DNA of 53,083 nt from Desulfobacterales bacterium (lineage in GTDB: Bacteria > Desulfobacterota > Desulfobacteria > Desulfobacterales > JAUYIZ01): NCBI GenBank assembly GCA_030688615.1, contig JAUYIZ010000333.1:1-53083 (forward strand), read 5' to 3'. The translations under genes were made by a program, and so were the position numbers. This document shows positions 10,003-52,871 of this stretch, one piece after another. The notes beneath the pieces were generated by a model that had not been told where the DNA came from, did not search any database, and worked only from the letters and a program-made list of their open reading frames with translations. The stretch's first letter is position 1; each line of letters begins with the position of its first letter.

Positions 10003-10028
10003 AAAAACAGGGTTCAAGGGTAAAACCT

Positions 10029-10070
10029 GTTTACAGTTGATGGTTTACAGTTGATGGTTTACAGCTAACG
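10029..10070 (+). repeat. Heptanucleotide repeat array inside the spc operon
   Basis: Six consecutive 7-base units can be read: GTTTACA, GTTGATG, GTTTACA, GTTGATG, GTTTACA, GCTAACG, followed by a partial GTTAAAA. The array fills most of the 109-base gap between rpsE and rpmD. The same unit family recurs at 47983-48135 and 51752-51845. Here all units point the same way and I see no inverted partner. Confidence 0.85.
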
Positions 10071-10111
10071 GTTAAAAAAACGGATATAAAATAAACATCG
10101 GGAAAAATTAA

Positions 10112-38599: not shown

Positions 38600-38708
38600 A
38601 ATTGAGAAGAACCGGACAGAATAATTTCTTCTTGTATTTATTTAATATTTTTGGTAGTGATTCCAATTGATTTTACCGGGGAAAAATTGAGCGCTTCTGT
38701 TGGTTCTA

Positions 38709-39940
<1,232 letters not shown>

Positions 39941-45913: not shown

Positions 45914-46461
45914 AACAAATTACGATTTCTCGACGTTATGCTAAAGCGCTGTTGTTAATCGGGAAAGATGACGGCAGGGCTCAAGTTTACGGTGAGGAAC
46001 TATGCAAAATTTTGGAGCTGATATCAAAGGAAAAAGAGCTTCAGGAGGCCATCTGCAATCCCTTGTATGACACTGCAAGCCGGAAGAGAGTCCTGCAGGC
46101 CGTTTTAAGCAAACTGGAACTTTTCCCGGTTGTCAACTCGTTTTTACTCCTGCTGTTTGACAAAGGCCGGTTCGGCCTTTTAAATCAGATCAATGATTTT
46201 TATGAGCTTTTCCTGGATGAATTCAATGGTGTTGTCCGGGCGGACCTGACGAGCGCCTTTAAGCTGCAGCCCGAAACCGTTACAAGGGTGAAGCGCGAAC
46301 TTAATCGAATAACCGGCAGAGAGGTTAAACTGGAGCTTTCCGTAGATCCTGCTTTGATTGGTGGAATCGTTACAAAGATAGGTGATCATATTTTGGATGG
46401 GAGTATTAAAACTCAATTGAATAATATGAAGGAATCTTTGAATAGGGGCGATGTTTTATAA
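45910..46461 (+). CDS. atpH: ATP synthase F1 subunit delta
   Basis: Delta (OSCP-like) joins the stalk to F1. The 183-residue product has SRRYAKALL at the N-terminus, [16 protein letters not shown] and the C-terminal [28 protein letters not shown] in pieces, the family's best-conserved region. GTG is the start codon and overlaps the atpF stop. It overlaps atpA by one base (TAATG). Confidence 0.97.
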
Positions 46462-47978
46462 TGGAATTAAGAGCTGAAGAAATAAGCCAGATCATCAAGG
46501 AGCAGATTAAAGATTTCGACAAAAAGGTTGAACTCAGTGAAACCGGGATCGTGTTGTCGGTTGGGGACGGTATTTCCAAGGTGTATGGCATGGAAAAAGT
46601 TATGGCCCTCGAGCTGGTTGAGTTTCCGGGGGGTATTCTGGGCCTGGTGCTGAACCTGGAAGAAGATAATGTGGGCGTCGCCATTATGGGTGAGGATATC
46701 CATATCAAGGAAGGAGACATTGTCAAGCGGACCGGCCGGATAGCCCAGGTGCCCGTTGGAGAGCCTGTTCTCGGCCGGGTGGTTTCGGCCATGGGAGAGC
46801 CCATTGACGGCAAGGGACCGATCGATGCCGCCGAGTTCAGGCGGGTCGAAATGGTTGCCCCCGGTGTTATCGCCAGAAAGAGCGTGCATGAGCCGCTTTA
46901 TACCGGGCTTAAGGCGATCGATGCCATGACGCCGGTGGGCAGGGGCCAGAGAGAACTGATTATCGGTGACCGCCAGATCGGCAAGACCGCCATTGGCATT
47001 GACGCCATCATCAACCAAAAAGGCAAGGATGTTTACTGTATTTATGTGGCCTGCGGGCAGAAAAAATCCACGGTCGCCCAGGTGGTTGCGGTTCTTGAAA
47101 AACATGGCGCCATGGAATATACCACCGTTGTTTCCGCTTGTGCCAGTGATCCGGCGACATTGCAATACATTGCCCCGTATTCCGGATGCACCATGGGCGA
47201 ATATTACCGGGACAAGGGCATGCATGCCCTGATCGTCTATGACGACCTTTCAAAGCAAGCCGTCGCTTATCGTCAGGTTTCCCTGCTGCTGCGCCGGCCT
47301 CCCGGACGGGAAGCTTTCCCCGGAGATGTTTTTTACAATCATTCCCGGCTTCTTGAACGGGCCGGCAAGCTCAATGACGCGCTTGGTAAAGGGTCTTTAA
47401 CCGCTTTGCCGGTTATTGAAACCCAGGCCGGAGATGTTTCCGCATACATTCCCACCAATGTTATTTCCATCACGGACGGTCAGATATATCTTGAACCGAG
47501 CCTGTTTTTTGCCGGGACCCGCCCGGCCATCAACGTGGGGCTGTCCGTGTCCAGGGTCGGCGGATCCGCCCAGGTCAAAGCCATGAAACAGGTGGCCGGA
47601 ACGCTGCGTCTCGATTTGGCCCAGTATCGTGAACTTGAGGCCTTTGCTGCCTTCGGCAGCGATCTTGATGTGGCGACCCAGCGGCAGCTGACCCGGGGGG
47701 CAAGGCTCGTTGAAATTTTAAAACAGCCCCAGTATCAACCACTGCCCATGGAAAAGCAGGTCACCATACTGTATGCGGGGACCAAAGGGTTTCTGGATAA
47801 ATATCCCATTGGGCACATGAGAAAATATGAAGACGGCCTCTATCCGTTTATCGAAGACAACTTCCCGAAAATATTTGAAGGTCTTGCAAGAGAGAATGCA
47901 ATTACGGACGAGCTGGACAAGCTGATGAAGGAAGCCCTGGCCGCCTATGATGCGGAATTCAAAGAGACAATACAGTAA
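46461..47978 (+). CDS. atpA: ATP synthase F1 subunit alpha
   Basis: Alpha forms the non-catalytic nucleotide sites of the F1 hexamer. The 505-residue product has the Walker A form GDRQIGKT at about 170-177, [26 protein letters not shown] in pieces, and the signature [18 protein letters not shown] 180-base gap with heptamer repeats separates it from atpG, unlike the other tight junctions of the operon. Confidence 0.99.
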
Positions 47979-47982
47979 AACA

Positions 47983-48135
47983 GTTTACAGTTTACGGTTT
48001 ACAGTTGACGGTTAAGAAGACCAGGGGGCGGGGATCAGGTTTCAGGGATAAAAGCGGTTGACACTTTACGATTGCCGGAAAAAAAGGAAGGCAATTGAGA
48101 TTTGCCTGGTCCTTAAAAAACTGTCAACTGTAAAC
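47983..48135. repeat. Composite heptanucleotide repeat element between atpA and atpG
   Basis: Four plus-strand units at 47983-48010 (GTTTACA, GTTTACG, GTTTACA, GTTGACG) are followed by degenerate in-phase units at 48057-48077 (GTTGACA, CTTTACG, ATTGCCG). Two units on the minus strand lie at 48122-48135. The outer arrays are therefore inverted, so the transcript could fold with GTTTACAGTTGAC pairing to GTCAACTGTAAAC. Inside, GGCAA-TTGAGAT-TTGCC forms a small extra hairpin. No open frame. Confidence 0.8.
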
Positions 48136-48158
48136 CGATACTTTAGGGCTTAGATTGT

Positions 48159-49052
48159 ATGGCAACGTTAAAAGATGTTCAGAACAAGATCGGCGCGGTT
48201 AAAAAAACAAAGCAGATCACAAGGGCCATGAACATGGTGGCCGCCTCCAAATTGCGCGGGGCGCAATCCCATATGGAGGCCTTCAGACCCTATGCAACCA
48301 AATTTGCCGAGGTCCTCGAAAGCCTTTCCCGAAGTGCCGGCAATGATTCAAATCCCTTGCTGGTAGCCCATGAGAACACCAAGAAGGTTAATATCGTCCT
48401 GTGTACTTCCGACCGGGGGCTGTGCGGCGGGTTCAATACCAGTATTGTTGAGAAGGCCCTTTCTTTTGCCCGTGAGGCAGTCAGTGTCGATAGGGAGGTT
48501 TCCTTCACTACGTTCGGGAAAAAAGGCCGGAACTGGTGCCGGAAGATGCGCTTTGCCATCGATAGCGAATATCTGGATGTCGTTGGATCCAGGATCGGGT
48601 TTGAAGTCGCATCCCGGGTCGGGAAAAAATTGATAAATGGATTTCTGGAAGGGACCTATGATGAGGTCTATCTGATTTATCCGGAGTTCATAAGTTTTGC
48701 CAGACAGGTTCCGGTGGTCAAAAAGATTTTACCCATGACCCCCATTGAAACCCAAAAGGATGAAGAAACTGAAAGAGGCAAGCCCTATGTGCCTGAACAC
48801 ATTTGCGAGCCGTCCTCTGATGAGTTGCTCGCAGAATTGTTACCCAGAAATGTTTATGTTCAGTTGTATAGCGCGCTGCTGGAAACATCCACCAGTGAGC
48901 ACGCCGCCCGCATGGCGGCGATGAATAATGCCACCAAAGCGTGCAAGGATATGATTGACGATCTTGTTTTGGCCTATAATAAAGCTCGGCAGGCAGCCAT
49001 TACGTCTGAACTGATGGATATTGTCGGTGGCGCCGAGGCCCTTAGCGGATGA
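48159..49052 (+). CDS. atpG: ATP synthase F1 subunit gamma
   Basis: Gamma is the rotor shaft of F1. The 297-residue product begins MATLKDVQNKIGAVKKTKQI, has VLCTSDRGLCGGFNT in the centre and ends with the conserved SEHAARMAAMNNATKACKDM and QAAITSELMDIVGGAEAL. The ATG has only a weak upstream purine run, unlike neighbours, perhaps because the repeat element has replaced the native leader. Confidence 0.98.
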   Translation: MATLKDVQNKIGAVKKTKQITRAMNMVAASKLRGAQSHMEAFRPYATKFAEVLESLSRSAGNDSNPLLVAHENTKKVNIVLCTSDRGLCGGFNTSIVEKALSFAREAVSVDREVSFTTFGKKGRNWCRKMRFAIDSEYLDVVGSRIGFEVASRVGKKLINGFLEGTYDEVYLIYPEFISFARQVPVVKKILPMTPIETQKDEETERGKPYVPEHICEPSSDELLAELLPRNVYVQLYSALLETSTSEHAARMAAMNNATKACKDMIDDLVLAYNKARQAAITSELMDIVGGAEALSG

Positions 49053-51006: not shown

Positions 51007-51798
51007 ATGGGTAACACAGCCAGGTATGTAACCGTCGTCATTCTTGCCGCGGGGATGGGCAAGCGGATGAACTCGGATCAGGCAAAGGTTCTCCAAAAAA
51101 TTCTTGGAAAACCCATGGTTTTGTACGTGGTTGAAACCGCCCAAAAAGTCGGCAATGAAGTCATAACGGTCATTGGAAATCAGGCGGACAAGGTCCGGGA
51201 AGTCATCTCGCAACACGCGGAAAACATAAAATTCGCCTTCCAGGACAGACAGCTGGGGACTGCGCATGCGGTGATGTGCGCCCTGAAACATATTTCAGAC
51301 GATACCGGGCATGTCCTTATCCTGTGCGGGGATGTTCCGTTGATCAGGCCGGCAACGATCAGCAGGCTCTTGGATGATCATTTAGGGGCCCGGCGGGATC
51401 TTTCCCTGCTGGCGGTCGAAATGGACAATCCATCGGGCTATGGGAGGGTGTTGTTTGACGAAAATCGACAGCTGTGCGGTATCGTTGAAGAAGCGGATGC
51501 CACGGAAGGCGAAAAAAACATCAAAACGATTAACACGGGTATTTACTGCGTAAAAAAAGATTTTTTGTTCAGGTCACTGGCCCAGATCACAACGGATAAT
51601 GTTCAGGGGGAATTTTACCTTACGGATATTGTCAAGATCGGTTTTAGGGGGTGCGAGAGCATCGGGTTGACGGTCGCGAAGGATTACCGGGAAGTCATGG
51701 GCGTTAACACCCTTGAACATCTGCTGAAAGTCGAAACATTGATGCGAGACCGTTTACAGTTGCCGGTTGACAGTAAAAAAAATAAAAGGGTGCCTTGA
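51007..51798 (+). CDS. glmU: UDP-GlcNAc pyrophosphorylase, GlmU N-terminal domain only
   Basis: The N-terminal domain of GlmU makes UDP-GlcNAc from GlcNAc-1-P and UTP. Motifs: ILAAGMGKRMNSDQAKVLQK (family LAAGxGTRM, with Lys in the Thr position), LGTAHAV, LCGDVPL, GYGRVLFDEN, TINTGIYCV and QGEFYLTD. The product ends at residue 263, whereas full GlmU has some 450 residues with a left-handed beta-helix acetyltransferase domain; none follows. The last residues (LQLPVDSKKNKRVP) are coded partly by a heptamer repeat. SD GAGGTGGG. A paralogue supplying the acetyltransferase step would be expected elsewhere. Confidence 0.88.
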   Translation: MGNTARYVTVVILAAGMGKRMNSDQAKVLQKILGKPMVLYVVETAQKVGNEVITVIGNQADKVREVISQHAENIKFAFQDRQLGTAHAVMCALKHISDDTGHVLILCGDVPLIRPATISRLLDDHLGARRDLSLLAVEMDNPSGYGRVLFDENRQLCGIVEEADATEGEKNIKTINTGIYCVKKDFLFRSLAQITTDNVQGEFYLTDIVKIGFRGCESIGLTVAKDYREVMGVNTLEHLLKVETLMRDRLQLPVDSKKNKRVP

Positions 51799-51845
51799 GG
51801 TCTTTAAAACTGTAAACTGTAAACTGTGAACCGGCAACCGTAAAC
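51752..51845. repeat. Inverted heptamer repeat across the 3' end of glmU
   Basis: Three plus-strand units (GTTTACA, GTTGCCG, GTTGACA) lie at 51752-51772 inside the last codons of glmU. Five minus-strand units (GTTTACG, GTTGCCG, GTTCACA, GTTTACA, GTTTACA) lie at 51811-51845 after its stop. The two arms are nearly complementary over about 22 bases and would form a strong hairpin with a loop containing the stop codon. Confidence 0.85.
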
Positions 51846-52550: not shown

Positions 52551-52680
52551 ATATGAACGATCAATATCAGCAAACCCTGATGACCTATGAGAACTTTCCA
52601 TTTTTAACCTGTATTGACGGAAAAGGTTTTGACCTGGCGGGTCGACTCGACCCCGGTGCCGGGAGTGACGTGTTAATCAG

Positions 52681-52857
52681 AACCCCTGCCGTGTTCGTGA
52701 TTGGAAGTAGTTTTTTGACCCAACATTCAACCCATGGGTGCCTTCGCTGATTTCGGTGTGCATGTTCTGCTCGTTCAGAAAAGCCTAAAGAAACTATAAG
52801 GCGCCCACCTGACTGAAAGGGTTTAAAGACCTGCCACACGGCACTGTGGCGGGGGTT
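52681..52857 (+). ncRNA. ssrS: 6S RNA
   Basis: 6S RNA mimics an open promoter and sequesters sigma70 RNA polymerase. The 5' AACCCCTGCCGTG pairs with the 3' CACACGGCA and GGGGGTT to close the molecule. The conserved middle is seen as GTTCAGAAAAGCCTAAAG, then AAGGCGCCCACCTG, and GGGTTTAAAGACCTGCC, in the order and spacing of known 6S RNA. About 177 bases, the usual size. A possible promoter is TCGACC at 52647 and TGTTAA at 52671 (18-base spacer). The ends are estimated from pairing. Confidence 0.85.
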
Positions 52858-52871
52858 CATTCGTCAGACTC

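Follow-up and report, generated by a model that had tools for sequence, protein, structure and literature searches.

A heptamer-ended block in an ATP synthase operon is probably an old, non-autonomous mobile element of an S23-derived family

The 53,083-nucleotide stretch of Desulfobacterales DNA analyzed here (the window) carries a block of 7-bp units between atpA and atpG, which is best explained (at a probability of about 0.8) as an old, non-autonomous, MITE-like element that would have been mobilized in trans by an IS66-family insertion sequence and would form a hairpin in the mRNA. The family to which it belongs appears to derive from an element encoding S23, the 23S rRNA intervening-sequence protein. 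While the atp copy is a real member of a non-autonomous mobile family, the surprising part is the wider association between S23 genes and heptamer arrays.

The block between atpA and atpG

Convergent arrays of the unit GTTNHCR are located between the stop codon of atpA and the ribosome-binding site of atpG. The features of this region, and of the two sister copies in the window, are as follows:

46461 to 47978, plus strand: atpA (F1 alpha; Pfam PF00006, PF00306 and PF02874)
47975 to 47982, plus strand: putative left outer terminus GTAAAACA, GTAA-type, degenerate
47983 to 48013, plus strand: left heptamer array of four units and a final GTT (GTTTACA, GTTTACG, GTTTACA, GTTGACG, GTT)
48057 to 48077, plus strand: internal degenerate units GTTGACA, CTTTACG and ATTGCCG, read directly from the sequence
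48119 to 48142, minus strand: right heptamer array, inverted, with GTTTACA, GTTGACA and GTT within it; pairs with the left array
48143 to 48158, plus strand: native atpG leader with the AGGGCTT ribosome-binding region, resembling the leaders of relatives (AGGGCTT...ATG)
48159 to 49052, plus strand: atpG (F1 gamma; PF00231)
10020 to 10073, plus strand: sister copy with a GTAAAACCT terminus and a single heptamer array, between rpsE and rpmD
51752 to 51775, plus strand: left array of a sister copy, lying in the 3′-terminal part of a nucleotidyltransferase ORF (51007 to 51798), after atpC
51808 to 51845, minus strand: right array of that copy, inverted, partner of 51752 to 51775

A preliminary description of this DNA had reported four forward GTT-type units from position 47983 and units on the opposite strand that give the block inverted ends. 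Both are present, the inverted array at 48119 to 48142 being able to pair with the left one. The inner degenerate units, said to keep the phase, do share a 7-nt register among themselves, but they lie at an offset of 74 nt (10 × 7 + 4) from the first unit and are thus off-phase with the first array.

The gap between atpA and atpG amounts to 180 bp here, compared with 15 to 135 bp in 29 relatives. The TAA stop codon of atpA shares bases with the GTAA at the left edge of the element, and the C-terminus of AtpA is as long as that in relatives. As AtpA has kept its C-terminal length and the atpG leader is like that of relatives, the element occupies intercistronic space with neither signal broken; an insertion in this gap would have been tolerated. 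Its outer ends are degenerate (GTAAAACA on the left, GTATCG on the right) and direct reading of the sequence revealed no recognizable target duplication, which is why the atp copy is probably an old insertion. The interior matches that of an S23 element weakly (p = 0.07), so its presumed descent from such an element rests on the arrays. In a genome of another family (G006), heptamer-like units (AACTGATAACTGACAGAACTGAT) lie at the equivalent atpA–atpG junction (L243), which suggests that this junction is a recurrent landing site.

When folded as RNA, the transcript of the atp copy yields a long hairpin with a stem of ∼19 bp (z = −5.8). The RNA structure proposed in the preliminary description is thus partly borne out, as a predicted hairpin that follows from the inverted ends of the element; it may conceivably tune the stoichiometry of alpha and gamma, as that description suggested. 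No known RNA family of Rfam was found at the atp element; elsewhere in the window, a 6S RNA (RF00013) lies on the plus strand at 52680 to 52859, downstream of zapA. Within the polycistronic mRNA, the element would fold into this hairpin and likely be cut by RNase III, by analogy with the Coxiella intervening sequence (IVS), excision by RNase III having been reported for rRNA intervening sequences (PMC4990558).

The family, its interiors and its termini

As had been claimed, three copies of the heptamer family (10029 to 10073, 47983 to 48142 and 51752 to 51845) lie within about 42 kb (41.8 kb when measured). A 17-mer dimer pattern of GTTNHCR, the family consensus, matched the window 14 times with at most one mismatch, whereas 50 dinucleotide-model simulations averaged 0.2 matches. 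The units are neither unique to this stretch nor at chance level, either of which would have spoken against a dispersed family: in the 4.78-Mb genome (429 contigs), a 24-mer pattern (at most three mismatches) gave 173 matches versus four for the backwards control, and a 31-mer of the consensus gave 112 versus none. Owing to the degeneracy of the units, a strict 21-mer badly under-counts the family. With the 31-mer, arrays were present in 30 of 112 genomes of the order.

Contig stretches of the same genome totaling 365 kb contained 53 elements, with arrays mostly of ∼4 units; 28 elements were convergent pairs, and 42 of the 53 copies were intergenic according to rough ORF calling. Alignments between copies start at the outer boundary of an array and stop inside the element. 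One sub-family (L036, L037, L038, L052, L060, L067 and L068) has a near-identical single array, GTTGACGGTTGCCGGTTTACAGTTAACGGTTAAGTTGTTTTCATAT, preceded in six of its seven members by a GGTTCAAGGGTAACATCC-like end. What looks like a second MITE-like family is represented in the window by an inverted-repeat element at 38703 to 38858, with GAGACCTTTGAAAAATGCTC close to the start and AAGGTCTCG close to the end; a relative of it adjoins a heptamer array at L058:16428-16465.

Several copies hold the start and/or the end of an ORF (MGSSFEDLEVWKKACRLSVRLYKLLKDCRDYG...) that belongs to PF05635, that is, S23. A search of the genome for this protein family gave 17 matches, and seven of the eight truncated ones were in or beside GTTNHCR arrays. 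An intact S23 gene between GTTNHCR arrays was found in a genome of a different family (L121, genome G023), with 91% identity to the remnant over 46 aa. The interior of this element was matched well above shuffles by 14 of the 53 copies, whose internal deletions differ, and by four further copies that had been found via their S23 remnant. Judged by these alignments, many of the sister-copy interiors are internally deleted pieces of the S23/IVP gene. The ancestor would have been an element of ∼0.4 kb with this four-helix-bundle protein as its sole gene and convergent tandem-heptamer arrays as its ends, and the family would have arisen from it by internal deletion.

Two copies with S23 remnants in the own genome (L084 and L085; 255 and 257 bp) end on either side in the terminus GTAACCGTTCACGG and are framed by 8-bp target duplications without mismatch (GTATTTAT and AAATGCCT); another copy (L070) has the 8-bp duplication GCGCCCGC. 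Target duplications of unknown length gave no overall signal among the own-genome pairs; anchoring on the GTAACC terminus revealed them. A 230-bp MITE of the complete genome G049, likewise with the GTAACCGTTCACGG terminus, has perfect 8-bp duplications at five of nine sites, compared with none of 72 mismatched pairs reaching even 7 of 8. The same genome contains a 2.8-kb insertion sequence with the ends GTAACCGTTCACGGG and genes for a DruA-domain protein and an IS66 DDE transposase; of the four copies examined, one retains an 8-bp duplication. One end of a matching insertion sequence is present at a contig edge of the own genome (DruA 83% identical over 82 aa, terminus GTAACCGTTCACGGGCGATAATCG), where the ends of other IS66 copies differ from the GTAACCGTTCACGG-type terminus. 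More generally, GTAA occurred no more than 16 bp outside the array for 34 of 84 arrays, with preferred offsets of 6 and 9, compared with 5 of 168 control windows.

IS66 elements start with GTAAGCG and make 8-bp duplications (PMC11946415). The duplications around S23 remnants, together with an insertion sequence of equal termini, thus argue for a MITE-like family that is probably moved in trans by an IS66-family insertion sequence (DruA and DDE transposase), which is the best inference from the sequences at hand. The transposase would recognize the GTAACCGTTCACGG terminus in trans, move the element as DNA and generate the 8-bp target duplication. Duplications of this length do not fit an IS200/IS605-type mechanism (REPIN/RAYT, Y1 transposase). 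Of the origins considered in the preliminary description, a non-autonomous mobile element is therefore borne out by homology that ends at the array edges, by S23-bearing sisters with 8-bp duplications and by an insertion sequence sharing their terminus.

S23 genes and their flanking heptamers

The association of S23 with heptamers was surveyed at 158 loci, including 69 from other genomes of the order and 80 named ones spread over many phyla. In the own genome, nine S23 genes are intact and mostly flanked by other heptamers, such as CTCAGTC, ACCCATA, GAGAGCG and AATCAAC. At the 69 order loci, 75 of 137 flanks showed lag-7 periodicity, as against 5 of 126 control windows; besides its multiple at 14, lags 8 (17 versus 3) and 9 (6 versus 1) were the only ones in clear excess. 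The 80 pan-bacterial loci gave 78 of 160 flanks versus 7 of 145 controls at lag 7 and 25 versus 0 at lag 8; shared ancestry may inflate these counts as well as those for the order. Leaving out one locus with a run of N (L158), the S23-locus array count was 62 of 78. At 57 loci an array could be called on either side of the gene, and 50 of these pairs were inverted. Four S23 genes (L105, L122, L146 and L155) have arrays of 8-mers or 9-mers in place of heptamers. The heptamer unit tracks the similarity of the S23 proteins (41% of units within one mismatch on the same strand for proteins at least 70% identical, 1.4% for distant ones), which indicates that array and gene are inherited together. 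The structure entries 2gsc and 2rld each contain five S23 chains, which points to a pentamer. S23 genes were present in 89 of 116 genomes of one order and none was found in phages; a single genome of the order (G112) had 38 S23 matches, possibly a burst of the element.

Ten S23 genes on cyanobacterial plasmids lie nearly all between inverted heptamers, for example AGTAGGG/CCCTACT. Comparison with 98%-identical plasmids lacking S23 delimited an insert of exactly 428 bp, comprising arrays and gene, whose two junctions both carry GTAAT. The insert in Nostoc plasmids, ∼417 bp long, occupies a 3-bp intercistronic gap. Plasmid S23 genes were also seen inside cas operons, twice between cas6 and cas4 with different heptamers and once between cas10 and cmr3 (L271, L278 and L279). 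Natural pairs of filled and empty sites include Picosynechococcus PCC 7003 versus PCC 7002 (cas10–cmr3) and one involving Trichormus variabilis ATCC 29413. The cyanobacterial filled and empty sites lack 8-bp duplications, one of them resembling a 5-bp duplication, and no consistent target duplication was found at most of the pan-bacterial S23 loci. GTAA ends of the IS66 type were weakly enriched at S23 elements in general (18/171 versus 14/342), and were rejected as a general feature of these elements on that account. Given the lack of a consistent duplication at most S23 loci, the cyanobacterial sites without 8-bp duplications and the weak GTAA enrichment, transposition by IS66 cannot be the rule for all S23 elements, and the machinery may differ from one S23 lineage to another.

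These observations bear on three other explanations. S23 and the inverted heptamer hairpin might drive an RNA-based mobility, by transcript insertion and reverse transcription, with the IS66-type ends a secondary capture in this lineage. Such a route is suggested by the fold of bAvd, an accessory protein of diversity-generating retroelements, which is similar to that of S23. It would also suit the insertion at intercistronic stop/start junctions, the occurrence of S23 elements in rRNA (PMC4990558) and the orientation of S23, which is sense with both neighbors in 93 cases and antisense in 5. Ordinary small ORFs, however, are likewise sense-biased (31:7), and the 8-bp duplications and insertion sequence termini in this lineage indicate DNA transposition, which makes an RNA-based route improbable here. 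Somewhat less probable still are arrays that are bound, as DNA or RNA, by a regulatory protein (IHF/HU, S1, Csp or Csr) and were selected in operons. Regulatory sites have been proposed for the paired heptamers of Geobacter (PMC2700814) and the TAACTGA repeats of Beggiatoaceae (PMC4679880), and the intergenic position of most copies conforms to such a role, but it would not account for interiors made of an S23 gene, for target duplications or for insertion sequence termini; some copies may have been exapted later. Simple repeats produced by local replication slippage, with no mobile element involved, are the least credible, as the filled and empty sites and the target duplications largely refute them, along with the convergent pairing and the conserved interiors, even though heptamers are a favored slippage length (Mrazek, as cited in PMC4679880) and slippage may still set the unit number, which varies among S23 loci.

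With transposition of an S23-derived element as the preferred reading of the atp copy, a broader proposal can be made tentatively, at slightly less than even odds: heptamer-ended elements with S23 as their only gene may form a pan-bacterial mobile class, in which S23 recognizes the heptamer of its own lineage and aids mobility, and of which rRNA IVSs, cyanobacterial STRRs, TAACTGA repeats and many heptamer MITEs would be members or remnants. For decades, scattered bacterial heptamers have been treated as regulatory sites or slippage products with no agreed origin, which a link to S23 elements may explain. S23 genes, in turn, have had no agreed function beyond that of "selfish" rRNA inserts, and joining the two provides a testable account of both. 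In that account, S23 genes reside in small mobile elements that insert between the cistrons of operons (cas operons among them) and give rise to non-autonomous hairpin elements, by which mRNA processing may be changed.

Comparison with known systems

The preliminary description knew of no named family with this unit. The unit does belong to the TAACTGA heptamer class (PMC4679880), and the Coxiella IVS has a heptamer array upstream of its S23 gene (PMC4990558), but the general link between arrays and S23 appears to be undescribed, no earlier report of it having been found in the open-access literature.

The 23S rRNA IVS of Coxiella burnetii, 428 nt in length, consists of an S23 ORF, a 28-bp terminal stem and three GACAGAT heptamers before the ORF (PMC4990558). 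The S23 ORF, inverted terminal repeats and tandem heptamers are common to it and the elements described here; of these S23/IVS features, the atp copy has terminal repeats that form a stem (19-bp paired arms) and tandem heptamers at its ends. In contrast to the IVS, which is located in helix 45 of the rRNA, the elements here are dispersed among protein genes and mostly gene-less. As the atp copy sits between atpA and atpG rather than in 23S rRNA, it does not, strictly speaking, count as an rRNA IVS.

The TAACTGA repeats of Beggiatoaceae, cyanobacteria and Bacteroidetes have mostly been presented as direct repeats close to start codons, with no link to S23 (PMC4679880). Their unit fits GTTNHCR (GTTATCA), and the tandem units of the family described here fall within AACYGDN. 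An S23 gene of Vibrio salinus is preceded by about nine TCAGTTA units, which are of the TAACTGA type. The cyanobacterial STRR heptamers appear to resemble the inverted heptamers, such as AGTAGGG/CCCTACT, around the plasmid S23 genes. Through S23, the 23S rRNA IVS and the TAACTGA repeats can be linked, and the cyanobacterial STRRs probably too. The paired inverted octamers and heptamers of Geobacter metallireducens, tandem 7- to 8-mers on opposite strands with a variable spacer, have been read as IHF/HU sites (PMC2700814); compared by description rather than by sequence, they are alike in layout. With IS66-family MITEs, finally, the family shares the GTAA terminus, the 8-bp duplication and a matching DruA/IS66 insertion sequence, from which it is set apart by its subterminal tandem-heptamer arrays and by an interior derived from S23 instead of from the insertion sequence.
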